Made by a program: the position numbers and the translations under genes. From positions 1,206,001 to 1,270,000 of the forward strand of contig NZ_AP022810.1 in the NCBI RefSeq assembly GCF_009731355.2: DNA of 64,000 bases, given 5' to 3'. This stretch comes from Desulfuromonas sp. AOP6. Lineage in GTDB: Bacteria > Desulfobacterota > Desulfuromonadia > Desulfuromonadales > SZUA-540. The notes under the pieces are model-generated. The model was not told the origin of the DNA. It ran no database searches and saw only the letters and a program-made list of their open reading frames with translations. Shown here piece by piece: positions 2,578-20,219 of the stretch; the stretch's first letter is position 1; each line of letters starts with the position of its first letter.

Positions 2578-4671
2578 TTGTTGAATAGAGTAGCCAGACT
2601 CCTTTTTTTAGGGTTGGTTTTCTCCCTTTTTTGGGGAGGGGGCCAACCCCTTCTTTTCGCCGCTTCTCCTCTGGGACTAGCGGGCAATTGGCAGTATGCG
2701 GACCAGGGAGGCGACCTCGATACTCCCTGGTCCTTTAACGAGTATTACAATCTGGATTTCAGTAAAGATCTCACGGATGCCATGAATTTTGCCGGAACGG
2801 CCCGCTACAACAATAACCGCAGGGAGGGAGGAGAGCGCCACAGCCTGCTGACGCCGACAGTGTCGCTGGATGTGCGCAACGACCTCTTCTCCCTCAACCT
2901 CAGTGCCGTCGAGACCTGGCAGGAATCCTCCAGCCGTTCTGATCGTGTCAATCAGTCCTGGGATGCCAACCTCTTTACCCAGAGCCAGAAGTGGCCCAGA
3001 ATGCGCCTTAATTATGGGCAGACCCGCGCTTACGACGAACAACAACCACGCGAACTTGATCAGGAATCTTCCTATGTCGGTGTGCGGTTTGATTACGACT
3101 GGTCCGGCCTGCGGTTTCTGTACGACTATCGGCTGAACTCCAGCGAGGATATGACAACTGCGACAACCGCAGACACCTCTCGGCATTTCGGCCAGATTCA
3201 GCGCAGCAGAAGCCTCTTTGACGGACGTCTCACCCTTTCAGGGGCTTACCAGGTTTCTTATGACAAAAGTGACCGTGAAACGCGTGTCGGCATCGGCGGT
3301 GAAGTCTTTATCCCCATCAACCGACTGACTTTGGAGGCCTATTCCGGCGCTGACGATACGCCTGTTCTGGGCACATTGCCTTTGAATGACCAGCTGATTG
3401 ATGGCAATGTCATCGATCCGGCTGGGGTGGAGATCCTTCAGTCCGGCCTGACGCAAAATGTTGCGCTGCAAATGAGTTTCCAGCCCTTTAACCGCCTGCG
3501 TATCTATCTGGACAGGGAAATTACACTGACCGCCCAGGCGTTGCTGGCGTGGAGTTTCTACACGAGCGACAACGGTTTGGACTGGGTTCCGCTGGGGCTG
3601 GGAACCGTATTGGAATACGACCTGGAAAACGGGCGTTCTGTGGTCATCGTTGATATCCCCTCGGGAAATATCGAGGTTCGTTATTTCAAGGCGGTCTCCG
3701 AGCGCATGGCGGTGACGGCAGAGACAGCCAACATCACTGAGCTGGAGGTGGGCGAAGCGCGGGTGTCGACGGCGCCGGTCGAGCAGTTCGACAACCGTTT
3801 CATTGATCGAAAAGCTAATTTCTCGATGGCCTACCAGCCTTCGGGTCAGTGGCGCTTCAACTATAACCTGCGCCACAGTGATCGGGAGCTTGACCCGGGC
3901 CGGGACAGTACGGAGCTTAATCAATCCCTGACCGCCAATTATGTTCTGAACCGCTATTTCTCCACCCTTGTTGGTGTCAACCAAACCGACAGACGCAATG
4001 AAGCGGAAAACAAAAGGGTGGGGCGATCCTATTCCGTTTCGATGACTTCATCCCCTCTGGACAGCCTCGACGCTTCTGCCGGTTACACCCATACCGACAA
4101 CTATCTGGGGTCAGTAAAGGAAAATCTGCAGGATTCGTTAAATGGCTATATCTCAGCCGTCATTTTCCCGGATCTGACGACAAGGATCTCTGTGAACTGG
4201 GATCGCAACCGGAATGAACTTACTTCAACCGGCACCACGACAACCATCTGGCGCTTCGACAGCACCGCCCGCCTCTCACCACGATTAACCGCCGATTTTA
4301 CCTATAATCGAACCTCGACTCAGTACGACGGCGACCTCAGCTCTCGTTCTGAAAACAGGGATACTTCCGTCCTTGGCGGTAAACTCAATTATCGCCCTTC
4401 GGACATCCTTCTTCTGCTCTCCCAGGTGGATTATGAGGAAAATTCAGGTGATATCACAGCCGTAGGCAGTGCCACCTGGCGAGCGACTCCCAAAATCCAG
4501 ACGACGGGCAATGTGGTTCTGGGCTGGGAAGACCGTCAATATAAGGCCTATGACCTTCAGGTTTTGTGGTCATTAAGTTCTTCTATTTCTCTGCGGGCAC
4601 TTTATGGGTATCTGATCGACGAAGGAAGCAATTCATGGAACACGGTGGCCAGCCTGAATCTAACATTTTAG
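2578..4671 (+). CDS. Outer-membrane beta-barrel protein (putative conduit porin)
   Basis: 697 residues with a signal peptide (cleavage near LFAAS, about residue 29). The remainder shows repeated short amphipathic, aromatic-rich strands such as LNLSAVETW, LTANYVLNRYF and VSMTSSPLD. It ends in VASLNLTF, a C-terminal Phe typical of BAM-inserted barrels. The start is TTG at 2578, supported by AAGGA at 2566-2570. The protein is not similar enough to MtrB/OmbB for me to name it, but a large barrel directly after two 12-heme cytochromes is the layout of porin-cytochrome conduits. A second barrel of similar size lies at 56424 in the other cluster. Function as an electron conduit or secretion porin is inferred. 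Confidence 0.82.
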   Translation: MLNRVARLLFLGLVFSLFWGGGQPLLFAASPLGLAGNWQYADQGGDLDTPWSFNEYYNLDFSKDLTDAMNFAGTARYNNNRREGGERHSLLTPTVSLDVRNDLFSLNLSAVETWQESSSRSDRVNQSWDANLFTQSQKWPRMRLNYGQTRAYDEQQPRELDQESSYVGVRFDYDWSGLRFLYDYRLNSSEDMTTATTADTSRHFGQIQRSRSLFDGRLTLSGAYQVSYDKSDRETRVGIGGEVFIPINRLTLEAYSGADDTPVLGTLPLNDQLIDGNVIDPAGVEILQSGLTQNVALQMSFQPFNRLRIYLDREITLTAQALLAWSFYTSDNGLDWVPLGLGTVLEYDLENGRSVVIVDIPSGNIEVRYFKAVSERMAVTAETANITELEVGEARVSTAPVEQFDNRFIDRKANFSMAYQPSGQWRFNYNLRHSDRELDPGRDSTELNQSLTANYVLNRYFSTLVGVNQTDRRNEAENKRVGRSYSVSMTSSPLDSLDASAGYTHTDNYLGSVKENLQDSLNGYISAVIFPDLTTRISVNWDRNRNELTSTGTTTTIWRFDSTARLSPRLTADFTYNRTSTQYDGDLSSRSENRDTSVLGGKLNYRPSDILLLLSQVDYEENSGDITAVGSATWRATPKIQTTGNVVLGWEDRQYKAYDLQVLWSLSSSISLRALYGYLIDEGSNSWNTVASLNLTF

Positions 4672-7495: not shown

Positions 7496-9132
7496 AACAT
7501 GTCACAATAGCCCTGCTACTTGCTTGCAGTTTTGTCTGCAGTTCTGGATTTCTCGATGACGCGTATGCCCTTTGGGGATTCTGGGAGAGAGATCCCGTGC
7601 TACTCACGGTGAACGAAGAGCAGTTGACAGCCGCCGATTTCAAGGGCTGGTGGAAGGAATGGCGGGAAGAGGGGATGACGGTGCCAGATCGTCCCGAGGC
7701 CTACCTCGACTGGATTCTGCTCTGGCGCGAAGCGGAAAAGATGCAATTGTACGAAAAAGAGTCCTACCGTTACAAAGTGGACGTTTTTCGCAAGGTCTGG
7801 TCGCTGATGCTGCTGAAGCAGGAGGAGGTAGACAGCCGCATCACCAACCCGCCTCGGGAGGAACTGTGGAAAGATTATCTGCATGACTACGCGCCCCGTC
7901 TGAGTCTGCGCATGGTCCGGGTCTCCGAAGCCGACAAGGTAGAACCGATGCAGCAGGCGGTGGAGTCGGGTCTGTCCCTGGCGGAATCCGCCGTTTTGGC
8001 AAAAGTGACCAATGTTGCGGATTTAATGGAAAATTCAGGATTTCTCCGCCCTCGCCGTATTCCCGAACCCCTGCGGCGGGCCGTAGGCCATTTGCCCGTC
8101 GGCCAGATAGCGGGCCCGGTGAGTTGGGAAAACGCCTGGTATTTTCTGGAAGTTTTGGAACGGGAGCCTATCTCGGAAGAGGATTTTCAGAAGAACCGGG
8201 AGGTGCTGGCCCGGAGTTGGCAGAAAAAAAAGAGTGCCGAATTAACATCGGCCCTTGTAGAAAAAGCGAAAGCGAAATATGGGGTGAGTGTCGATCGGGA
8301 AGTGGTTGAAGCTATTGGATTCCAGCCCCTGGATGCTCAACTGGCCGCACGGCCGGCGGTTACCTTGGGCGGAGACGTGATCAGGGCTCAGGATATAGCC
8401 GACCTCATGATCAAGTCGAGAACGACACGGCCGAAGGTTGATGTTGCCACTCTGCGCGAAGGGGTCATCAACGATATGCTGGCCCAGACGCTTACCGCGT
8501 TGGAAGCCCTGGACCGGCAATACGAAACCAAGCCTCCCTTTAAGCAGACCTTCACGTTTTACCAACAGCATCGATTGATCCTGGAACTTGAGAACGAAAT
8601 TTTCTGGCCCCAGGTCCGAGTCAGTGATGAAGATGTTCGGCAGGCGTATCAAAAGAATCCAGAACCCTATTCCTCGGGGGGCATTGTCGAACTGGCGCAG
8701 GTCCAAACCGGTGAGAAAGCCCTTGCCCGGCAGTTGTCGGCAAGGCTTTCGGCCGGTGAAGACTTCCATGCTCTCATGCGTCCTCTCGCTCCCGGTGGTG
8801 TGAAGACGGAAAAAATCCCCCTGAATCACCTGTCTTCCCCCGTCCGGGAGATTGTGGCCGACATGGTACAGGGAGAGACCCGCAGTTGGGAGACCCCCGA
8901 GGGTGAGACTCTTTTCATCAAGGTTATCCGTCTCGATCTGCTGCCGCCTCTGCCGCTGGAGCAGGTGGCCGAAAAAATTCGCCAGACGATGCGGCAGTCC
9001 CGATTTGAGGAAGTGCGCAGCCGCTATGTCGACATGCTGAGAGAACGTTCGACCATAAAGGTCAATGAACGGGTCTGGAAAGAGATACGCGAACAACTGG
9101 TCAAGGAAGCGGAAACGAATGCGACGTCTTGA
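7486..9132 (+). CDS. SurA/parvulin-like periplasmic peptidyl-prolyl isomerase
   Basis: 548 residues starting at TTG 7486 with GGGAG upstream. A signal peptide is followed by a SurA-like helical N-domain (LLTVNEEQLTAADFKGWW, then ILLWREAEKM). Two parvulin-like regions follow: about residues 140-235 (LSLRMVRVSEADK to ENAWYFLEVLERE) and 395-485 (GGIVELAQVQ to GETLFIKVIRLD). A helical segment containing a second VTLGGDVI..DIADLM motif lies between them. Proteins of this kind fold exported proteins, and the family is characteristically encoded with secreted multiheme cytochromes in Geobacter relatives. The likely clients are the cytochromes and barrel of this cluster (inference). Catalytic competence of either domain is not certain. 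Confidence 0.85.
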   Translation: MSIKHVTIALLLACSFVCSSGFLDDAYALWGFWERDPVLLTVNEEQLTAADFKGWWKEWREEGMTVPDRPEAYLDWILLWREAEKMQLYEKESYRYKVDVFRKVWSLMLLKQEEVDSRITNPPREELWKDYLHDYAPRLSLRMVRVSEADKVEPMQQAVESGLSLAESAVLAKVTNVADLMENSGFLRPRRIPEPLRRAVGHLPVGQIAGPVSWENAWYFLEVLEREPISEEDFQKNREVLARSWQKKKSAELTSALVEKAKAKYGVSVDREVVEAIGFQPLDAQLAARPAVTLGGDVIRAQDIADLMIKSRTTRPKVDVATLREGVINDMLAQTLTALEALDRQYETKPPFKQTFTFYQQHRLILELENEIFWPQVRVSDEDVRQAYQKNPEPYSSGGIVELAQVQTGEKALARQLSARLSAGEDFHALMRPLAPGGVKTEKIPLNHLSSPVREIVADMVQGETRSWETPEGETLFIKVIRLDLLPPLPLEQVAEKIRQTMRQSRFEEVRSRYVDMLRERSTIKVNERVWKEIREQLVKEAETNATS

Positions 9133-11059
9133 TTTTGCCTGGAAGATTTTATTATGCCTCGTTACGGTCGGACTGGCTGCTTGCGCTCCGGCCGGACAGA
9201 AAGGGGCGTCCAAGGGGTGTCTCGATTGCCACCAGGAATACGCGAGCCGGTTTTCCGAAGGGAACAAACACAGACCTGTGGCTACGCAGGAATGTGGAGC
9301 TTGCCATCGCAACCATGGGCTGATTGGCGGCCTTTATCTGAAAAGAGAAGTACCCGAACTCTGCTTCGGCTGCCATGCGGACATCAATCCGGCCAGGGTC
9401 AATTACGCCGTTTCTCATCCGCCGGCTGACACAGGCGAGTGCCTGGCCTGCCACGATCCCCACAACGCCATACAACCAGGCCTTCTCAAAGACGCGGAAG
9501 AAACACTCTGCCTGACCTGCCACGGTACCGCCGCTTTTGCCGGGCAGCTCCGGCATGCGCCTCTGGCGAAGGGGTGCCGGACCTGCCACCAGGCCCATGG
9601 CAGTCAGAATCCTGATCTGTTATCCATGGACAAGGAGGCCCTCTGTGCCTCCTGCCATGACCTGCAGCATCAAAGTCATCGGAATAGGCACGGAGGCTAT
9701 GCCGTCGACAGGGGGTGCACGGAGTGCCACAATGCCCATACTTCTGACCAGAAGTTCCTTCTGAAGAAGTCCGTTCACGGGCCGGTGAAGGAGGGTACTT
9801 GTGGAGATTGCCACAATAGCGCCAATCTTGGCAGTGATGGACTGCCTGCGGCCGACATGGAATTGTCCTGTTACAGCTGTCACGGCGACAGAAAGGCTGA
9901 CTTTTCTGCAGCAGATGCCCATGCCGTCGTGCGCGACGGACAATGCCGGGCCTGTCATTCACCTCATGCCAGTGATTCCGCCTTTTTGGTGAGCGAGAAT
10001 GAAAAAACCCTTTGTTTCACCTGTCATACCTTTAAGTTCAATGAGCCTGGAGGTCCTCTGTCGGGCAGAACAAAAGGACACAGCCCGGTAGCGAGCGGGG
10101 ACTGTCTCAGCTGCCATACGCCTCATCGCGCTGAGGCCGGTCGGAAAGCCCTTTTGAACGCCCCGTCCGGCAGCCTGTGCGGGCAGTGCCATGACACGGC
10201 AACGTCTGCCCCGACCTATTCTCATCCCCCCGTGCACGAGGATGGCTGTCTGGGGTGCCACCAGCCCCATGAGAGCTCCGAGGCCGGACTGCTTCTTAAA
10301 GCTCAGCGCGATCTGTGCGCAGACTGTCATGAGGGTGTGCGTCAGGCCATGAAAGATACCCATCTGCATCGACCTTTTCTGAACGGCCGCTGCGGAGCCT
10401 GCCATGATCCCCACGGCGGCGACAGGGCCGCTTTCCTGAAAGGAGAAGGGGCCCAGACCTGTGCTCCCTGCCATCCTAAGCTTGAGGCGCAGCGGCAGAT
10501 TCCGGGGCGGCATGAACCTTTCAAGGCCGGTCAGTGCGCCGCCTGTCACCAGCCCCACTCCAGCGACCAGGCTTTTTTGCTGTCGGCGGAGGTTTCCACT
10601 GTCTGCCTGCAATGTCACCCAGGCCAGAAACCCGCGACGGGTGTTATGGGTAAACATCAAAACTGCGCCAGCTGCCATGCCCCCCACGGCAACGAAGGCG
10701 ATCACTACCTGCTGAAAAGCCTTCCCGAGTTGTGCCTTTCCTGCCATGACGTCGATCGCTTCTGGGTGCAGGGCGTGGCGCATGAACCGGCTGCGTCCGG
10801 TCAGTGTGGCGCCTGCCATGACCCCCACTTCCGTCGTGTCAAGACCTCTTTTAGCGCCATGGAAACCTGCTACGGCTGTCACAGTCTGTCACCAGCTGAC
10901 CTGGCCAAAACCCACAGCGGCATAAGGCCTGGGGATGAAACCTGCCTTGAGTGTCACGATCCGCACGGCGCCAGCAAGAAATCCCTGCTGCATCCCGTCG
11001 GGCATAAACCTTTCACGGACGGAGACTGTGCCGTCTGTCACCAGGGAGGCTCACGATGA
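9119..11059 (+). CDS. 26-heme c-type cytochrome lipoprotein
   Basis: 646 residues starting at ATG 9119, which overlaps the previous gene by 14 nt; an earlier in-frame ATG at 9065 would bury the signal. Lipobox LAAC (Cys about residue 21). I count 26 CXXCH motifs (first CLDCH, last CAVCH), arranged largely as repeats of the doubled-CXXCH module, in which CxxCHxPH and LCxxCH are separated by a stretch like LLKDAEET. The whole chain is essentially a heme wire of about 25 residues per heme. As a lipoprotein it should be anchored to the outer membrane, facing the periplasm or the exterior. A terminal or filament-loading electron-transfer role is inferred. The stop overlaps the next start (ATGA). 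Confidence 0.93.
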   Translation: MRRLDFAWKILLCLVTVGLAACAPAGQKGASKGCLDCHQEYASRFSEGNKHRPVATQECGACHRNHGLIGGLYLKREVPELCFGCHADINPARVNYAVSHPPADTGECLACHDPHNAIQPGLLKDAEETLCLTCHGTAAFAGQLRHAPLAKGCRTCHQAHGSQNPDLLSMDKEALCASCHDLQHQSHRNRHGGYAVDRGCTECHNAHTSDQKFLLKKSVHGPVKEGTCGDCHNSANLGSDGLPAADMELSCYSCHGDRKADFSAADAHAVVRDGQCRACHSPHASDSAFLVSENEKTLCFTCHTFKFNEPGGPLSGRTKGHSPVASGDCLSCHTPHRAEAGRKALLNAPSGSLCGQCHDTATSAPTYSHPPVHEDGCLGCHQPHESSEAGLLLKAQRDLCADCHEGVRQAMKDTHLHRPFLNGRCGACHDPHGGDRAAFLKGEGAQTCAPCHPKLEAQRQIPGRHEPFKAGQCAACHQPHSSDQAFLLSAEVSTVCLQCHPGQKPATGVMGKHQNCASCHAPHGNEGDHYLLKSLPELCLSCHDVDRFWVQGVAHEPAASGQCGACHDPHFRRVKTSFSAMETCYGCHSLSPADLAKTHSGIRPGDETCLECHDPHGASKKSLLHPVGHKPFTDGDCAVCHQGGSR

Positions 11060-12237
11060 GACAGGGCCTTGCTTTATACCTGTTGGCCATGGGCTTGATT
11101 TTTATCGCGTCAGGCGCGATGGCGGCTGAGAGCGGCGATTGTTATGGCTGTCATGACCGCCAGGCTTTCCAGGGCATAGTCGTGCATGCACCTGTCAAAG
11201 AGGGGCGCTGCAGTCTGTGCCATTCTCCTCATGTTGCCAAGGAAAAGGCTCTGCTGCGGACCTCCGAGGCCGAGCTCTGCCTGCAGTGCCATCAGGATGT
11301 CGGGCAAGCCGTGGCCAGAAGTCCCTATCCCCATGAACCAGTGGCCCGGGGTAAGTGTGTGACTTGTCATGCTCCCCACGCGTCAAATCATCGGGACTTG
11401 CTGGCAGGAAACCTATCGGATACCTGCTTTTCCTGTCATCAAGAGAGCCGCCGAACCTACGACTTTTCCCACAGGCCCTTTGTCGAAGGCAAATGTGACA
11501 GCTGCCACACCTCGCACGGAGCGGCGGATTCGCGTCTCATCAAAGCGGCGGACCCTCTCCTGTGTCTGGCCTGCCACCAGGACAGGGAGCGTCTGAAATC
11601 CAGGCATCTTGGCCGTAATCCGAGCGATATGTCCTGCCTGAAGTGTCACTCGCCCCATGGTGGCAGCCAAAAGACACTTCTGCGGTCCAGACAGCATGAG
11701 CCCTTTGCCCAAGGCCGGTGTCGCCAGTGCCATGCACAATCTAACAGCCCCTCACTGTGCCTGGGGTGCCACGAGCCAATCCTGCCGAGCTTTCAGCACA
11801 GTCATTCTCATCTGGTCGGCCAGGCTGGCGGCAATATCTGTCTGAGCTGCCATGACCCCCACGTGGGAGACGTCGCCGGCATGTTGCCAGCAAACCAGTC
11901 AAACGTATGCAGATCCTGTCACGCCGACACGTTTAACCGTCGTGCCAGCATGCTGCACCGGCATCCCCAATGGAATACCTGTTCCGATTGTCATGAACTG
12001 CACGGCAGTGATCATACGGCGATGTTAAAGGACGAGGTGGACGCTGTTTGTGGTCAGTGTCATGAAAAACACGTGAGTTTCACGCATCCCATCGGAGAGA
12101 AAGCCAGGGATCCGCGCAATGACTTGCCGATGACCTGCATTACTTGCCACGACTCCAATGTCGGCACCCTCTTCAAGTATCATCTCCGCGGGGGCGGCGA
12201 AAGGGGGCTTTGCATCGAATGTCACCAAAGTTATTGA
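11056..12237 (+). CDS. 16-heme c-type cytochrome, doubled-CXXCH family
   Basis: 393 residues with a signal peptide (cleavage after SGAMA) and 16 CXXCH motifs from CYGCH to CIECH, in the same doubled-motif repeat style as the upstream 26-heme protein (VHAPVKEGRCSLCHSPH, then LCLQCH). It has no lipobox, so it should be soluble in the periplasm or secreted. Its ATG overlaps the upstream TGA (11056-11059), so the two are translationally coupled and are likely partners in one electron-transfer chain. The C-terminal modules (CITCHDSNVGTLFKYH) are less repeat-like. The exact role is unknown. Confidence 0.93.
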   Translation: MRQGLALYLLAMGLIFIASGAMAAESGDCYGCHDRQAFQGIVVHAPVKEGRCSLCHSPHVAKEKALLRTSEAELCLQCHQDVGQAVARSPYPHEPVARGKCVTCHAPHASNHRDLLAGNLSDTCFSCHQESRRTYDFSHRPFVEGKCDSCHTSHGAADSRLIKAADPLLCLACHQDRERLKSRHLGRNPSDMSCLKCHSPHGGSQKTLLRSRQHEPFAQGRCRQCHAQSNSPSLCLGCHEPILPSFQHSHSHLVGQAGGNICLSCHDPHVGDVAGMLPANQSNVCRSCHADTFNRRASMLHRHPQWNTCSDCHELHGSDHTAMLKDEVDAVCGQCHEKHVSFTHPIGEKARDPRNDLPMTCITCHDSNVGTLFKYHLRGGGERGLCIECHQSY

Positions 12238-13215: not shown

Positions 13216-14304
13216 ATGATTTTTGGGATGAGACATAGGGGAGTATGGCTTGGGGTGCTACTGGCCCTGGCCGCCGCGCCGTCAGCGCTTGCTGCCGTCA
13301 CTGGCTCCTGCTCCAACTGCCATACCATGCACTACAGCCAGGATGGCGGGATACTGAGCGAATGGAGCGGGCAGGGACCGCATCAGTCTCTGCTGACGAC
13401 TACCTGTATCGGCTGCCATACCGGCAGCAACAGAGGTGGCGACACTCCCTTCGTCTTTTCCATCTCAGCCCCCCTGTATGACAGCTATGGCGTTGAGATG
13501 GGTACCGATACTCTGGCCGGCGGCAACTTTTACTGGGTGACGCAGGCTGGCGGCGACAACCGGGGTCACAATGTGGCCGGTCTGGCGCCAGCCGACCCCG
13601 CTTTCCCTGTTCCCCCCGGGTTTGAGGGGGGCAGGGCGGCGGCGGATGGCAGTATCCCGGGAGGCGGTGGTTGGCCCGCTGGTCAGCAGGTCACCTGTGC
13701 CGGCGTGTACGGCTGCCATGGCAGCCATGCAGAAGCCCATTCCACGTCGGCGATCAAGGGGGGGCACCATAAAGGCCAGTCCGGCCATATTGTTCCTTCA
13801 GACCCCTTTACCGCGGACAGCGGTTACCGGATGCTGGTCGGGGTGGCCGGCAACGAGGATTCTGCCTGGGAGTATCAACCCACCCCGAGTCGACACAATC
13901 AGTACAAGGGTGTTGATTCACCAGAAGTCCTGACCGATCTGTCGACCATCGGTTCGATGTGCGCCCGCTGCCATGGACAGTATCACGATGGCAGCGGCAA
14001 TGTCGGTAGCCGTTCACCCTGGGTTCGGCATCCGACGGATTACGATATGGGCAACACGGCAGTGGCTTCCGAATACCGTGATTATGGCGGCAGCGGTGTC
14101 AATACCTACCAGGTCGGTGTTCCCCTGGCCTCCGTCGACGTCTCTTCGGTGCATGCCTCGGTGTCCTTTGCGGACGATGCCATCGTCACCTGTCTTTCCT
14201 GTCACCGCGCTCATGGGTCGCCCTGGTACAGGGCCATGCGCTGGGACTACGTGGGAAATCCCATGGGGGGAGGCTGCGCCATCTGTCACACGAGTAAGGA
14301 TTGA
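13216..14304 (+). CDS. OmcS-like filament cytochrome, copy A (5 CXXCH plus one CX5CH)
   Basis: 362 residues with a signal peptide ending SALAA. Motif order follows OmcS: CSNCHTMHYS, CIGCH, a FYWV..GHNVAG segment, a TCAGVYGCHGSH segment, CARCHGQYH with VRHPTD, CLSCHRAHG and a C-terminal CAICHTSKD. OmcS has six hemes; here the third site is CX5CH instead of CXXCH, and the same change is seen in copy B at 19209. OmcS polymerises into extracellular conductive filaments, so this is probably a filament or filament-like subunit (inference). The start is uncertain: GTG 13180 and ATGs at 13216 and 13228 are all in frame. It sits mid-operon, 3 bp before the next gene. Confidence 0.85.
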   Translation: MIFGMRHRGVWLGVLLALAAAPSALAAVTGSCSNCHTMHYSQDGGILSEWSGQGPHQSLLTTTCIGCHTGSNRGGDTPFVFSISAPLYDSYGVEMGTDTLAGGNFYWVTQAGGDNRGHNVAGLAPADPAFPVPPGFEGGRAAADGSIPGGGGWPAGQQVTCAGVYGCHGSHAEAHSTSAIKGGHHKGQSGHIVPSDPFTADSGYRMLVGVAGNEDSAWEYQPTPSRHNQYKGVDSPEVLTDLSTIGSMCARCHGQYHDGSGNVGSRSPWVRHPTDYDMGNTAVASEYRDYGGSGVNTYQVGVPLASVDVSSVHASVSFADDAIVTCLSCHRAHGSPWYRAMRWDYVGNPMGGGCAICHTSKD

Positions 14305-14307
14305 TTC

Positions 14308-15534
14308 ATGGCAACACACCGTTTGGCAGGAAAAAAAATGAGGATAGTCCGTCACCATTTTTACGCGGGCAAGCTGGCGCTAGAAGTGGCGATAATCTGC
14401 ACTTGGATTTTGGTGACGGCCCTGTCGACTTTTGCTGGCCCCTACGCCGACTCGGCGCACGGCAACTCCCCCGATGGTGTCTCAGGCTATGGAGTCAAGC
14501 GAGTCACCAGTCCACACAACGAGACCTATGCCCGAGGTAATTGCGGTCACTGCCACGAGCAGCACCTTGGTGCCGAGGAATTCCTGCTTTTCGCGCCGAA
14601 TAATCCGCCGACAGCCAGTCAGAATCTCTGTTTCGACTGCCACAGCAACGCATCGCTCAATGAGGGCACTCTCATCAACGCCAATTACAGTGCCACCTTC
14701 GGCGGGGCTATTCCTACCCATACCAGTATTGAAAGTGTTTTTTCATCCATCAGCCCCAATGCGTCCATCCATGATCTCAGTGCCGTCTCCACGGAGATTC
14801 AAAAGTACTGGCCAGAGACCTTCGGCCCCAGTTCCAATCCTTGCGCCGGCTGCCATAATCCGCATCGGGCTCAAAAAAACAATAATCCCGGTCCTTACAA
14901 TGCCAGTGTACTGCCCAAAACAGCCATCTCCCTGCCCGGCGACCATAACAGCTTGTGGGGGGACAGTTATGCCGAAAGCATGAAACAGTACGCCGAAAAC
15001 CAGGGCGGCGAGTACCGTGCTCCTTTCGCGGTGGGGGCCAACCCTGCCTTGATCTCCACTGCGCACGAGCCTGACCAGGTCAGTCGTCCTATCACCAGCG
15101 AGGAAGTCAAAGGGGCGACGACGCCCGATTACGCCACCTTCTGCCTGGCCTGCCATCAATACACCATGGGAACGGTGCGGGCCATCAGATGGGATCTTGA
15201 TTATCACGGCCCCGTCAACGGAATTAGCTACAAAAATGACAAGGGTGTTCGCATCGCGCCTTACACTTCGGATGGTACAACGTCGGGAACGGACATCTCC
15301 TATGGCACGGGTGGTGTCAACTTTATTCTCTCCTGTCTGGACTGCCATGAACCGCACGGCTCGGAAAACAGGTCGATGCTGCGAACCACGGTCAATGGCA
15401 AGACGGGCATCCAGATTGCCGTGACCGGTGAGTGGTACGCATTCTGTACGGGCTGTCATGCCTCGGACACTCACAAGACCTCGGGTGCATGCAATACTAA
15501 CGGCTGCCACACCCATGGAAGTACCAGATTCTAA
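14308..15534 (+). CDS. Multiheme c-type cytochrome (6 CXXCH plus one CX4CH)
   Basis: 408 residues starting at ATG 14308, with AAGGA seven bases upstream; ATG 14338 is an alternative. The N-terminus contains one hydrophobic export segment (about residues 24-43, ending STFAG). Heme motifs are CGHCH, CFDCH, CAGCH, CLACH, CLDCH and CTGCH, then CNTNGCH (CX4CH) close to the C-terminus. CX4CH is an established heme site in some cytochromes c3, so seven hemes are plausible. Long low-heme stretches between sites suggest a folded domain rather than a wire. The gene follows OmcS-like copy A by 3 bp. The role is unknown; it may be a partner of the filament cytochrome. Confidence 0.87.
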   Translation: MATHRLAGKKMRIVRHHFYAGKLALEVAIICTWILVTALSTFAGPYADSAHGNSPDGVSGYGVKRVTSPHNETYARGNCGHCHEQHLGAEEFLLFAPNNPPTASQNLCFDCHSNASLNEGTLINANYSATFGGAIPTHTSIESVFSSISPNASIHDLSAVSTEIQKYWPETFGPSSNPCAGCHNPHRAQKNNNPGPYNASVLPKTAISLPGDHNSLWGDSYAESMKQYAENQGGEYRAPFAVGANPALISTAHEPDQVSRPITSEEVKGATTPDYATFCLACHQYTMGTVRAIRWDLDYHGPVNGISYKNDKGVRIAPYTSDGTTSGTDISYGTGGVNFILSCLDCHEPHGSENRSMLRTTVNGKTGIQIAVTGEWYAFCTGCHASDTHKTSGACNTNGCHTHGSTRF

Positions 15535-15565
15535 AATCTCTGACTGGCCTTGGCCCTGGTGAACT

Positions 15566-16984
15566 ATGGACGGTTTTTCAAGAATAGCATTGGTGCTCAG
15601 TGTCATGGCCGCTGTGCTTCTCAGCGGTTGTCATCCAAACATTGGGCGGGAAGTGACGCGGCCTGCAATGGCGGGGCCTGGCCAGGCCCTGGTCACCCTT
15701 TACCTGGAGACGGTCGGCGCCGGTCCGGCCAATATTACTCTGATTCTTGCCGATGTGGAGGTCCTCCAGGAGGGGGTCTGGTTGCCCGTTGTTTCCGGCC
15801 CTGTCGAAGTTAATCTGGCGCGGGATCGGGAACGACAGACGCTGCTGGGCCTTGGTGTGCTCCCGGCCGGTCGCCACGAGCAGTTTCGTTTTCGCATTCA
15901 GGAGGTGAGACAGGGACGCCGGGTTCTGGCCCTGGCGAGCGAGCAAAGCCATGTTGTTCTGGAGGCCGGTGCCGGCATCCAGCTGGATGAAGGAGACAGC
16001 CATTGTCTTTTCCTGCGGTGGCAACTGGACGATTGCCTCGACAGTCAGGAACGCTTTGTCCCTCGTTTCAGTCTTAAAGCGCAGACCGAACCCTTGACCA
16101 GTGAACTGCTCTATGTCCTTTGTGATGACATCAATACGCTTTATCTGGCCCGTTCCGATCGGAATTTTATTGTCTATTCGCTCGCCGTGGATGGGCCCGT
16201 CAGCGACCTCAGTCTCGACAAGGAAAGGCAGCTTCTCTATATCCTCAGTCGCGGGGCGAGAGCCCTGCTGGTTTTCGACTGCCAGCGTAATCGTATAGTC
16301 GACCGTGTGGCGCTGCCCGTAACCGTCGATCCGCGCTATCTTGCTCTTTCCACGGATGGAATTCATGCTTTTGTATCCGATGCGGCCACGGACAGGGTTG
16401 TGAAGGTTGATTTACGCAGCGGCCAGTTGGTACAGCAGGCCAGTGTGGGCTATCGGCCTGGGCGCCTTATTTATTTTGACGATGGCAGTCTGGGACGGGT
16501 CGCGGTAAGTTCTCCCGGCTCACAGCAGGTCTTTATTCTCGATGCCCAATCCCTTTCCCTGGTTTCCGCCCTTTCCTCAGGGTTTCAGCCGGAGGGGTTG
16601 TTCGTGGCCGGCAGTGTCCTCTATGTCTGCGATCGCGGTAGTCAGACAGTCACTGCCTGGTCCCTCCGTTCCCGCTCCGTGCTCAGCCATATTCCGGTAG
16701 GACGGGAACCGGTATCTCTGGCTGGCGACGGCGGCGATAAGATTTATGTGGCCAACTATGGCGACCAGAATCTCTCCGTGATTACTCGAGGCCAGAATAT
16801 GGCGCTGCGACAGATTCCCGTCGGTCGTGGTCCTTATTCCTTCGCCTATCTCGGCCACCGCAACGTGCTGTATGTTGCCAACCGTCTTTCCCAAACGGTC
16901 ACTGCCCTGGATATCGCAAGTGAAAGGCCCTTTGCTACGCTTGCCCTTGGGGGAACCCCCCTGTTTCTGGCCGTGCAGGATTGA
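15566..16984 (+). CDS. Lipoprotein with DUF4382-like domain and YVTN-type beta-propeller
   Basis: 472 residues, lipobox LLSGC (Cys about residue 22). Residues about 40-160 form a beta-sandwich-like domain (ALVTLYLETV, LGVLPAGRHEQFRFRIQEV) resembling DUF4382. From about residue 180 there are seven propeller-like blades of the YVTN type, for example GDKIYVANYGDQNLSVI and RNVLYVANRLSQTVTALD. Such propellers serve as extracytoplasmic binding platforms. The gene is embedded among cytochrome genes on the same strand with short gaps, so it is probably an outer-membrane component of the same machinery. No enzymatic signature is seen. Confidence 0.82.
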   Translation: MDGFSRIALVLSVMAAVLLSGCHPNIGREVTRPAMAGPGQALVTLYLETVGAGPANITLILADVEVLQEGVWLPVVSGPVEVNLARDRERQTLLGLGVLPAGRHEQFRFRIQEVRQGRRVLALASEQSHVVLEAGAGIQLDEGDSHCLFLRWQLDDCLDSQERFVPRFSLKAQTEPLTSELLYVLCDDINTLYLARSDRNFIVYSLAVDGPVSDLSLDKERQLLYILSRGARALLVFDCQRNRIVDRVALPVTVDPRYLALSTDGIHAFVSDAATDRVVKVDLRSGQLVQQASVGYRPGRLIYFDDGSLGRVAVSSPGSQQVFILDAQSLSLVSALSSGFQPEGLFVAGSVLYVCDRGSQTVTAWSLRSRSVLSHIPVGREPVSLAGDGGDKIYVANYGDQNLSVITRGQNMALRQIPVGRGPYSFAYLGHRNVLYVANRLSQTVTALDIASERPFATLALGGTPLFLAVQD

Positions 16985-16997
16985 GGTGATGCAGACC

Positions 16998-18227
16998 ATG
17001 AAGCGCATTTTTCTAAAGCCTTTTTGGCGGATTCCTGACCGGCGTTATCACCGTCTGATCGTCCTTTTGGTCGCTTTGTCGCTGGGTGTCGCCATAATAT
17101 GTGGAGGCTTTGGCCAGAGCCGTGCGCTTGCCGAGGAAGGTGCCTGCCTTGGGTGCCACCAGGCGACCTGGGATCGGGACCTTGGTCGTTTTTATGTCCA
17201 TGCCCCTTTCATGGAAAAGAAATGCGGTCACTGTCATGTTGCCGCCTCTTTCAAGGAGCCGCAAGCCTCCGTCCCTGTACCACCACCGTCTGCTATTGAT
17301 TGGTTCCGTCGAAACAGGGTTCCTGCCAGCGATCATTGGTTCGCTTTTTCACCGAGTTTGGTCGCGGATCACCTCTGGATCGAAACAAGGGAAGGAAAAA
17401 AGAGTCAAAATCCCTATTATGTGAGTCTTCCACCCTTGGAGAGTCTGCCAGAGTTTGCCAACGACGGCGGGCCTCCGCAGATCGGCCGAGTCGAGGTTCA
17501 AGAGGTCAGCCTGGGAGTTTTCGTCTCGGCGCGCATCACCTGGACAACCGACGAGTTTGCCGATTCCTCCCTGCGTTTCGGATTAGGGAAATTGACTGAG
17601 GAATCAACCCGAGATTTCAACCTGCGGCAAAACCATGAGGTTATTCTCTCTGGCTTGGAGCGAGGGAAGGAGTACCTCTTCTCGGTTGTCTCGGAAGATG
17701 TGTTTGGTAACCGGGCTGTTTCCGTTCCGATGGCCTTTTCGACACACCGTAATCTTCCCTCCAATGAATCGGATGCAAAGACTTCAAGTCCATCTATGCT
17801 GAACTCTACCGAGTTGTCCCTGATCCACCGCCTGCATCGCGCCGGTGACCAATACCTCCTCCTGGTCGAGGCCCCTCAGCCTGTCACAGTTTCCCTCGGT
17901 AAAAACGCCGTTGCTGCTAAAGGGCCCAATCGCCTGGCCCAGACACCTCTAAATAGTGGTGACCCCACGCATCCTCCCTTGCAGGATGAAGTATTTCTCA
18001 ATATCAGTGTCTGCCTGAACTGCCATCAGAATATCAGCCAGGCCATGTCCCACCCCATTAATATTCTGCCGCCCAGGGGGATGCTCATTCCGCCCGAATA
18101 CCCGCTCCTTGCCGACGGCAGAATGACCTGTATGTCCTGTCACCTCCGGCATGGCTCAGACCTTCCCTTTCGTATGATCAAATCGTCGAGGAAAGAACTC
18201 TGTATCGGCTGCCATGTCAATTACTGA
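16998..18227 (+). CDS. Pentaheme c-type cytochrome with fibronectin-III-like insert
   Basis: About 409 residues. One N-terminal membrane or signal segment (LIVLLVALSLGVAII, then RALAEE) precedes two hemes (CLGCH, CGHCH). A heme-free middle holds an Fn3-like beta-sandwich at about residues 160-250 (VSARITWTTDEFADSSLRFG, then GLERGKEYLFSVVSEDVFGN). Three further hemes (CLNCH, CMSCH, CIGCH) lie at the C-terminus. The start at 16998 has GAGG 11 nt upstream; 16989 is an alternative with the motif too close. The adhesion-like insert suggests contact with another protein or with the filament. It is followed by the HAMP gene after 58 bp. Confidence 0.86.
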   Translation: MKRIFLKPFWRIPDRRYHRLIVLLVALSLGVAIICGGFGQSRALAEEGACLGCHQATWDRDLGRFYVHAPFMEKKCGHCHVAASFKEPQASVPVPPPSAIDWFRRNRVPASDHWFAFSPSLVADHLWIETREGKKSQNPYYVSLPPLESLPEFANDGGPPQIGRVEVQEVSLGVFVSARITWTTDEFADSSLRFGLGKLTEESTRDFNLRQNHEVILSGLERGKEYLFSVVSEDVFGNRAVSVPMAFSTHRNLPSNESDAKTSSPSMLNSTELSLIHRLHRAGDQYLLLVEAPQPVTVSLGKNAVAAKGPNRLAQTPLNSGDPTHPPLQDEVFLNISVCLNCHQNISQAMSHPINILPPRGMLIPPEYPLLADGRMTCMSCHLRHGSDLPFRMIKSSRKELCIGCHVNY

Positions 18228-18285
18228 GGGCGATTAATAGAATTGCTTCACTATCCAGATTACCCCTTCGGCGAGAGGAAAAATT

Positions 18286-18831
18286 ATGACTCAGGACTTT
18301 AAACGAAAAAAACTGAACCTTCAGGTTGAGCGCGAGTTCCAGCTTTGGCTGCTGGTGCGTATTCTTGGGGTGATTCTGCTCTGCTCAGTGGTCGCCGGCC
18401 TCATTTTGTATTTATTCGCCCGGCAGGAGACCGCCGCCTCTTTTTATCAGGCCCATATCAAGATCCGCCGAGTGAGCGACCTACTGTTTCCGGTTGTGGC
18501 CGCGGGTTCGCTGGTGAGCCTGGCCAGCGGCGTTCTTCTGGCTCTTTTTCTGCCTCAGAAAATTGCGGGGCCGATATATCGTATTGAAAAAGACCTCGAA
18601 CAGTTCAAACATGGTGACTTGACCGTCACTATTCGTCTCCGGCAAGGAGACACGCTGCAAGACTTTTCCCAAAACCTCAACAATATGGTTATTTCAATCC
18701 GTGAGCGGGTGCAGGCAGTCAAGGATGATCATGGGGCCTTGCAGGTGCTTGCGGCTGACTTGGACGATCCTCGGCTTAAGGAGGCCTTGAATAGACAGAA
18801 TAAAAGCCTGAGTCAGCTGAAAACCGATTAG
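18286..18831 (+). CDS. HAMP-domain membrane protein without output domain
   Basis: 181 residues with two transmembrane helices (about residues 22-45 and 62-88) separated by a short periplasmic segment. A HAMP-like linker follows (PIYRIEKDLEQFKHGDLTVTI, residues about 95-140), then a short helical tail. No histidine kinase, GGDEF or MCP signalling domain follows, so the protein is a HAMP-only membrane element. The strong GAGAGGA ribosome site at 18273-18279 supports the start. It is the last gene before the OmcS-like copy B promoter and could sense or regulate the export system; its function is unknown. Confidence 0.78.
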   Translation: MTQDFKRKKLNLQVEREFQLWLLVRILGVILLCSVVAGLILYLFARQETAASFYQAHIKIRRVSDLLFPVVAAGSLVSLASGVLLALFLPQKIAGPIYRIEKDLEQFKHGDLTVTIRLRQGDTLQDFSQNLNNMVISIRERVQAVKDDHGALQVLAADLDDPRLKEALNRQNKSLSQLKTD

Positions 18832-18907
18832 AAAAAAAGTCTCTGGTATTTCAGGTGTACGAGATGGTTTCGGTGAGAGTTGTTTTCGCCAGCAAGCTGT
18901 CTTGTGT

Positions 18908-18952
18908 GGGGGATATGCCCCAGCTAAATGGGTGGACTAGGGCATATCGCCC
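18908..18952 (+). promoter_or_regulatory. Candidate enhancer (UAS) pair for an NtrC-type activator
   Basis: GGGGGATATGCCCC (18908-18921) and GGGCATATCGCCC (18940-18952) form inverted copies of one motif about 150 bp upstream of the sigma-54 promoter, the usual position for enhancer-binding protein sites. Related sequences occur at 49780-49789, 53245-53256 and 61244-61255. Confidence 0.55.
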
Positions 18953-19077
18953 AGCGTAATGACCTTTTTGGGCTGTTGCGCTACAATAAATGAGAGCGCC
19001 TGAAGATTAAAATCCATAAGTATTTGAATTTTAATGGAACCTTGCTTGGCTTATAAAAAGCTGATTTTATAAGGAAT

Positions 19078-19093
19078 TGGCACCTTGTGTGCA
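19078..19093 (+). promoter_or_regulatory. Sigma-54 promoter of OmcS-like copy B
   Basis: TGGCACCTTGTGTGCA has a perfect TGGCAC -24 element and a GTGCA -12 element with correct spacing, 115 bp before the start codon. The transcript should begin near 19104 and carry a leader of about 105 nt. Confidence 0.85.
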
Positions 19094-19112
19094 GTTATTA
19101 ATGTTGATGGAT

Positions 19113-19176
19113 GCCGGTGTGTAACCAGACCGAAGCGCCACCTGCCAGGCGTTGGTCTTTCGAAGCTACAACCGGC
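19113..19176 (+). promoter_or_regulatory. Structured 5' leader RNA, possible cis-regulatory element
   Basis: An outer stem GCCGGT (19113-19118)/ACCGGC (19171-19176) encloses an inner hairpin AGACC (19127-19131)/GGTCT (19154-19158) extended by GCGCC/GGCGT. It ends about 20 nt before the AGGAGG ribosome site. I do not see the GEMM c-di-GMP core (GACGCAAAGCC), so no known riboswitch class is assigned. Confidence 0.45.
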
Positions 19177-19208
19177 GATCACACAGATTTAACTACAGGA
19201 GGTGTTAA

Positions 19209-20219
19209 ATGAAAAAAAACATGAAAATCGTACTGCTCGCCGGCTGCTTGTCCTTTATTGCCTCCGGCACGGCTTTTGCCGTATCGGGGCCCTGTGTCAA
19301 CTGCCATACCATGCATCAGACCGACGGATCGGGTAACGTCATGTCCGGTGCTTCCACCGCGCTGCTCAACAAAGCCGATTGCTATGCCTGTCACAGCGGT
19401 GCTTCCGGTGGGGCACCCAAGGTTGACAAACAGACGAATATCTCTGCCGGTGGCAGTTTTTACTGGGTGGATCAGGGCGTTGATACCGTCGGCCATAATG
19501 TGGCCTATCTGACCAACAACACGGATGGTATTTTGACTGCCCCCCCAGGGTTTGGCAGTGGGGAAGCGGCCCCCGATACATCAGTGCCTTTTGGCGGGAC
19601 CTATACGAATCAGGCCTTGACTTGTGCTGGTACCACTGGTTGTCATGGTACCCATTCCATAGCCAGTGACATGGCCGCATTGCAGGGCGCTCACCACAGC
19701 AATGCCAGTGGCGCCGTTGACGCCGCCCTTGATGCACTCCCCGGTGACAGCTATCGTTTCCTTAAGGGGATCAAGGGGTACGAGGATCCAGAATATGAGG
19801 TGGGTACGGGGCACAACCGTTACTATGGCGTTGATGGCGGTGGCGATAACCAGACTATCAGTGCACTTTGCGCTCGCTGCCATGGACAGTTCCATGGTGA
19901 TGCCGAAACTTACGCTGATGGTTGGATCCGTCATCCGACCGATCTCGACCTTTCTTCAGCTTTTGGTAGCGAGTATGTGGTAACAGCCTACGACAAGAAT
20001 GTGCCCCTCGGTTCAAGTGTCGTGGCCATGAGTGACAGTGTGGACTCGACTACGAATTCAAATCAGGTTGTCACCTGCCTCTCCTGTCATCGTGCTCACG
20101 GTTCTGATCAGCCCGACCTGCTGCGCTGGGCCTACACGGATATGGTCGCCGGTACCAGTGATGCTGCCATCGCCGGGACTGGTTGTTTCTACTGTCACAC
20201 GACCAAAGACGGTATCTGA
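19209..20219 (+). CDS. OmcS-like filament cytochrome, copy B (5 CXXCH plus one CX5CH)
   Basis: 336 residues with a signal peptide (cleavage after GTAFA). The order is CVNCHTMHQT, CYACH, FYWVDQG with GHNVAYL, TCAGTTGCHGTH, CARCHGQFH with IRHPTD, CLSCHRAHG and CFYCHTTKDGI. The architecture is that of the hexaheme nanowire cytochrome OmcS, but the third site is CX5CH as in copy A (13216), so the change is conserved between paralogues. A near-perfect AGGAGGTG ribosome site, its own sigma-54 promoter, a structured leader and a strong terminator indicate a highly expressed monocistronic gene. Probably an extracellular conductive filament subunit; the number of hemes (5 or 6) is unresolved. Confidence 0.88.
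   Translation: MKKNMKIVLLAGCLSFIASGTAFAVSGPCVNCHTMHQTDGSGNVMSGASTALLNKADCYACHSGASGGAPKVDKQTNISAGGSFYWVDQGVDTVGHNVAYLTNNTDGILTAPPGFGSGEAAPDTSVPFGGTYTNQALTCAGTTGCHGTHSIASDMAALQGAHHSNASGAVDAALDALPGDSYRFLKGIKGYEDPEYEVGTGHNRYYGVDGGGDNQTISALCARCHGQFHGDAETYADGWIRHPTDLDLSSAFGSEYVVTAYDKNVPLGSSVVAMSDSVDSTTNSNQVVTCLSCHRAHGSDQPDLLRWAYTDMVAGTSDAAIAGTGCFYCHTTKDGI

Follow-up and report, generated by a model that had tools for sequence, protein, structure and literature searches.

OmcS of Geobacter sulfurreducens (6ef8/6nef) is described, in the available part of PMC6584659, as forming a continuous heme stack and as having 12 histidine ligands, one of which is supplied by the neighbouring subunit. A 2025 Nature paper (PMC12545173) counts, in its available part, CXnCH with n from 2 to 5 as heme motifs in Desulfurivibrio alkaliphilus, aligns six of the seven DA_402 motifs with those of OmcS, and describes a sister clade of OmcS, so that heme tethering by a longer loop is already implied in print. 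In the present study we analysed a 64,000-nucleotide stretch of Desulfuromonas sp. AOP6 (contig NZ_AP022810.1, positions 1,206,001 to 1,270,000 of the forward strand), referred to in its entirety as the window, which encodes two paralogous cytochromes, copy A and copy B, each with five CXXCH motifs and, in third place, a CX5CH motif. Both copies are probably six-heme cytochromes of OmcS type whose third heme remains attached by way of a five-residue loop. The two genes and the motifs discussed below are as follows:

13228..14304 (ATG at 13216 or 13228), + strand: copy A, OmcS-sister cytochrome with five CXXCH and one CX5CH (open reading frame (ORF), BLASTP, profile, tree)
13309..13332, + strand: copy A first site, CSNCHTMH, the TMH histidine of which aligns with the OmcS TMH histidine (alignment)
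13696..13719, + strand: copy A third site, CAGVYGCH (CX5CH), followed by GSH (sequence)
13759..13770, + strand: copy A GGHH, candidate distal ligand or ligands (H140 and H141, copy B numbering, in 93 of 93 CX5CH sequences)
19209..20219, + strand: copy B, OmcS-sister cytochrome with five CXXCH and one CX5CH (ORF, BLASTP, profile, tree)
19623..19646, + strand: copy B third site, CAGTTGCH (CX5CH), followed by GTH (sequence)
19686..19697, + strand: copy B GAHH, candidate distal ligand or ligands (HH conserved in the family)

The motif order in both copies is CXXCH, CXXCH, CX5CH, CXXCH, CXXCH, CXXCH, which confirms what the initial annotation of the window had read at these six sites. The two proteins are 40% identical across 367 BLASTP columns and each has an apparent signal peptide, as judged by eye. 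They share with OmcS the order of the six sites, the TMH after site 1 and the motifs GHN, RHP and RAH, but differ from it at site 3, which is CXXCH in OmcS and CX5CH in A and B. The DPH that follows site 3 in OmcS is absent in the sister family, where GxHH, HNxY and CHxxFH are conserved instead, and the histidine of the N-terminal FHxGG of OmcS is, as read from the sequences, also absent in the copies. The DA_402 clade is, according to the available part of PMC12545173, likewise an OmcS sister clade with CX2-5CH, and the Desulfurivibrio metagenome-assembled genomes L092 and L102 carry CX5CH, whereas DA_402 itself has seven predicted motifs in that source and the window copies have six; we infer that DA_402, which lies outside our data set, belongs to the present sister family. 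OmcZ, as far as the available part of PMC9473688 describes it, is likewise a nanowire cytochrome and has an extended loop, of 14 residues, between two heme cysteines, but its heme packing differs and its loop belongs to heme 1 and lies in the subunit interface, in contrast to the five residues at site 3 reported here.

A literature search for CX5CH or CXXXXXCH together with heme matched no paper, the spelling 'CX2-5CH' was found in PMC12545173 only among the matches listed, and among the matches listed for the CXnCH spellings no paper was found that singles out or tests site 3. A CX5CH site was not found in the available parts of PMC12954529, PMC10954620, PMC12285233, PMC11208441 and PMC10734462, nor were the axial ligand pairs of OmcS in those of PMC6584659 and PMC11936953. 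The earlier statement that CX5CH is not an established c-heme site therefore needs qualification, as the motif had been counted as a heme motif in PMC12545173, yet it holds in so far as biochemical proof of CX2-5CH heme sites was not found in the available part of that paper.

Relationship to OmcS

Single-sequence searches of copy A or copy B against solved structures did not find OmcS at an expect value (E) of 10; the matches that they returned, R-spondin-2 for copy A and citrate synthase for copy B, were rejected as chance matches. A profile of 103 sister-family sequences did match OmcS 6ef8 (E 2.2e-25, OmcS residues 8-348), and profile-profile comparison (hhalign) with seven OmcS-like proteins gave a probability of 99.9; as the profile finds OmcS where the single sequences do not, A and B represent a sister family. 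In a tree of 111 proteins, from which the site-3 region was excluded, a branch with a support of 100 in the Shimodaira-Hasegawa-like approximate likelihood ratio test (SH-aLRT) splits the OmcS types from the sister family, and the latter comprises three groups: four CX5CH proteins, among them those that have seven motifs (support 94), ten seven-motif proteins with X2, X3 or X4 loops (support 90), and 89 CX5CH proteins (support 94). Loop length requires four changes on this tree. Copies A and B are placed apart from each other within the 89-member group, so the CX5CH spacing has outlived an old duplication, in agreement with the earlier observation that it was kept while the copies diverged.

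OmcS proper is characterised by six CXXCH motifs, while A and B have five plus one CX5CH, and because of the CX5CH at site 3 they are filed with the sister family, from which the tree also separates OmcS. Closer homologues of OmcS occur elsewhere in the same genome, as two tandem genes (G000:C1 near 1794078 and 1795463; L003 and L004) whose site 3 is in both cases CXXCH with DPHG after it, the gene near 1794078 matching OmcS with E 6.9e-49. The description of A and B as OmcS-like paralogues is thus right as to homology but too close as to kinship.

Conservation of the CX5CH site

Homologues were collected in several steps. A first sample of 58 genomes, including that of Desulfuromonas sp. AOP6, gave a match in 18. 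The main scan took one genome per species, used the seed peptides NCHTMH[YQ] and AGG[NS]FYWV, both of which lie outside site 3, and kept the best 80 of 189 confirmed places (75 loci) ranked by likeness to copy A, a ranking that favours near relatives. The profile search gave 132 hits, 15 of which scored below 24 bits and were left unused (other cytochromes and one OmcS-like fragment); a TMH-like trimming pattern dropped four more, namely L012, L102 and L033, all with CX5CH, and one L036 ORF interrupted by N. The 113 sequences that were trimmed gave 103 aligned as the sister family, with both window copies standing in for L001 and L002 and with two L036 CX5CH sequences omitted; eight OmcS-type sequences were set apart, seven of them in an alignment of their own and one repeating L004. 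The family members come from records named Desulfuromonadaceae, Thermodesulfobacteriaceae, Desulfobulbaceae and others.

The third motif is CX5CH in 93 of these 103 sequences, window copies included, and since it recurs at this frequency the spacing is not due to chance; on sequence evidence, CX5CH at the third site is a family trait. Six motifs are present in 90 of the 93 and seven in the other three. The remaining ten sequences all have seven motifs, and their third motif is CXXCH (6), CX3CH (3) or CX4CH (1). The alignment of homologues at scale, which the initial annotation had proposed, thus finds a third C-Xn-CH motif with n of 2 to 5 in every one of the 103 sequences and fewer than six motifs in none. 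As the 93 CX5CH sequences were themselves chosen by the motif, the invariance of their cysteines and histidine has no evidential weight; what counts is that not one of the 103 has lost the third motif. In the 81 of the 93 CX5CH sequences aligned for loop statistics, glycine is invariant both at the end of the loop and directly after CH, and the loop starts with alanine and then glycine, each the same in at least 90% of the sequences. Exactly 12 cysteines remain after trimming, all within the six motifs, in 72 of the 93.

In a subsequent draw, 36 of 297 genomes from the phylum had a match, and 30 loci yielded 35 matching ORFs, nine of them flagged as repeats. Among the other 26, 17 have CX5CH (including L127, whose gene is that of L012 above), six are seven-motif proteins with X2 (3), X3 (1) or X4 (2) loops, two are distant proteins with CXXCH only, and one is without the region. 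Two CX5CH proteins carry a second long motif, a further CX4CH in L089 (14024-15094) and a further CX3CH in L133, so one protein can hold two long loops.

Two explanations of the site bear directly on these counts. That CX5CH is a sequencing or assembly artefact has practically no probability, given that both paralogues carry the motif in frame, as do about a hundred relatives in other assemblies. It is also very unlikely that a heme is held at site 3 through a single thioether, or non-covalently, with histidine ligation: a long loop could be supposed to strain one thioether bond, but no examined sequence keeps one cysteine only, although such a sequence would not count as a motif, and none of the 103 falls below six motifs.

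Histidine ligands

Outside the motifs, seven histidines are invariant in the 93 CX5CH sequences (copy B numbering): H14 (TMH), H74 (GHN), H140 and H141 (GxHH), H207, H220 (RHP) and H275 (RAH); H180 is histidine in 91. The TMH histidine, which we take to be the inter-subunit ligand in OmcS, owes its 93 of 93 in part to the procedure, as the trimming pattern is TMH-like and the dropped CX5CH protein L033 is without that histidine. Even with HH counted once, the conserved non-motif histidines are enough for six bis-histidine hemes and are in surplus for five; a surplus of histidines is no proof of a heme, which limits the argument from ligand numbers. The initial annotation had remarked that GSH or GTH stands where OmcS has DPH. 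This is true of A and B, but the histidine in question, three residues after the motif, is found in 33 of the 93 and is therefore no general ligand, while GxHH, about 16 residues after site 3, is present in all 93 and is the conserved candidate for a replacement.

Equivalence of site 3 and the number of hemes

The first cysteine of CX5CH aligns with the first cysteine of OmcS heme 3 in HMMER, hhalign and MAFFT alignments, in line with the earlier proposal that the odd site corresponds to OmcS heme 3, and this equivalence is secure from the aligned sequences. With hhalign the first cysteines are paired, CH is paired with CH, and a three-residue gap lies between; the loop may have been gained by insertion, or CH may have been shifted by substitution. 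The distance from PGx to the first cysteine is eight residues in seven of eight OmcS-type sequences, and in the 93 CX5CH sequences it is exactly eight in 26, nine or ten in 32 and another value in the rest. QL or QV precedes the cysteine by three and two residues in 68 of the 93, and QL does so in two of the eight OmcS-type sequences. From the first cysteine to HH there are 23 residues in 80 of the 93, and 21-22 in five and 24 in one of the six CXXCH seven-motif members. By eye and by spacing, we read the third motif of the seven-motif proteins as the equivalent of CX5CH.

AlphaFold2 models were obtained for copy B (mean predicted local distance difference test score (pLDDT) 79.5, predicted template modelling score (pTM) 0.82) and copy A (mean pLDDT 83.6, pTM 0.85). 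In both, DSSP assigns to site 3 a strand with the first cysteine, a short turn, and a strand with the second cysteine and histidine (115-118 and 122-124 in copy B, 134-137 and 141-143 in copy A; block pLDDT 89-93), whereas short helices hold or adjoin the other five heme sites. The two site-3 cysteines may be inferred from this register to be cross-strand neighbours. The copy B model superposes on OmcS 6ef8 with Z 13.4 over 258 aligned residues (root-mean-square deviation 4.8), OmcS possibly having been part of the AlphaFold2 training data, and assigns copy B to the OmcS fold.

Several results weigh against a third heme tethered in this manner. HMMER and MAFFT leave site 3 ungapped and place CH onto the PH of OmcS DPHG, so that the CX5CH histidine falls on the OmcS DPH histidine, and a distal-ligand histidine plus a disulfide would fit such an alignment too; the modelled strand-turn-strand suits two thioethers and also a disulfide. 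MAFFT pairs the fourth motif of the seven-motif proteins, and not the third, with the CX5CH site, and the distance from the first cysteine to HH is 29-36 in the X3 and X4 members, for which site equivalence is accordingly weaker. CX5CH occurs in none of 201 other multiheme ORFs (from 108 of 138 loci, not de-duplicated), in which CX3CH was counted 8, CX4CH 9, CX8CH 1 and CX10CH 1 times, so CX5CH is no general heme spacing there and is specific to site 3. For the copy B model, Foldseek returned no match in the PDB at E 10, VIA-align compared the copy A model with a single chain, that of an Mtr complex (Z 4.5), OmcS being outside the comparison, and the heme lyase domain PF01578 has no match inside the window.

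The ungapped alignments, the geometry that would suit a disulfide and the absence of CX5CH from the 201 ORFs all favour a five-heme cytochrome in which heme 3 has been lost, the cysteine pair forms a disulfide across the turn, and the histidine takes the distal position on a nearby heme, a role that the DPH histidine of OmcS may also have. Such an arrangement is nevertheless unlikely, since in the seven-motif subclade the third motif is CXXCH, CX3CH or CX4CH and CH stays at the end of the loop whatever its length, and since the conserved non-motif histidines exceed the need of five hemes. Loss of a middle heme would furthermore break an OmcS-like continuous stack, which is hard to square with the many retained copies; at a limit of seven scored candidates per genome, three genomes gave seven family matches each.

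Of the two options raised in the initial annotation, a third heme tethered through the five-residue loop is thus the one that we prefer, with the five-heme cytochrome as its main rival, and the overall interpretation of that annotation is partly supported. Both proteins would be six-heme extracellular cytochromes of OmcS fold, presumably exported and assembled into filaments, in which the third heme would be held by two thioether bonds and the proximal histidine. The cysteine pair of site 3 would be presented by a tight five-residue turn, C-A/S-G-x-x-G-C-H-G, in place of the helical turn of CXXCH, and GxHH may act as the replacement ligand. With less assurance, we incline to regard CAGxxGCHG as a c-heme attachment element in its own right, in which a beta-hairpin displays both thiols. 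This element would be fixed at the third heme of a widespread family related to nanowire proteins, whose loop at site 3 has ranged between two and five residues.

Gene neighbourhood

The copies lie in a block of cytochrome and accessory genes with these further features:

9065..11059, + strand: cytochrome gene with 26 CXXCH (motif count)
11056..12237, + strand: cytochrome gene with 16 CXXCH (motif count)
15490..15510, + strand: CX4CH (CNTNGCH) near the C-terminus of the neighbour cytochrome (gene 14308-15534; sequence)

The block also holds propellers (NHL), a PPIC-type isomerase and an LpoB/CsgG-like protein. An operon with 16-heme and 26-heme cytochromes is described in the available part of PMC5539420 and is named oet in that of PMC10553843; the 26- and 16-motif cytochromes, propellers and peptidyl-prolyl isomerase that adjoin A and B are of the same kind, and the window block matches that operon by gene content, not by comparison with the Geobacter genes. 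OmcX, an OmcS-like protein and Apc2a are the candidate counterparts of A and B in such a block. The available part of PMC12977616 links such a block to maturation of the OmcS nanowire, and the match of the window block to it by composition likewise rests on gene content. Gene content was counted in 53 loci from L034-L108 with a length of 12 kb or more, not all independent because some share contigs; in 36 of them, the full set of five tested non-cytochrome genes accompanies an ORF of at least 20 motifs and one of 12 to 19 motifs.

The gene after copy A carries CX4CH as its last motif (CNTNGCHTHG), a feature that the window shares with L006 from the same genus. Of the 35 matches outside the genus, 33 have CXXCH in that place and two are truncated. 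A 697-residue protein encoded at 2578-4671 of the window matches nothing in Pfam or NCBIfam at E 0.01 and has a relative in 42 of the 53 loci; it is possibly the outer-membrane barrel of the block.

PF01578 was found in all 58 relatives searched and four times in the genome of Desulfuromonas sp. AOP6. One phmmer query against the 138 loci and the window found a CcsA-like ORF near the cytochrome cluster in L049 (12290-13139), L054 and L074, and in G009 PF01578 shares a contig (C45) with a family gene. A heme lyase dedicated to the cluster was thus sought but not found in the window, and with a cluster-near ORF in these three loci and a same-contig match in G009, such an enzyme is not general.

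Implications

Programs that count CXXCH alone would call these proteins five-heme cytochromes. If the third heme is present, the heme count would be fixed for a widespread set of putative nanowire subunits, and the family would offer a natural series of loops of 2, 3, 4 and 5 residues at one heme site, with which the loop tolerance of cytochrome c maturation could be tested.

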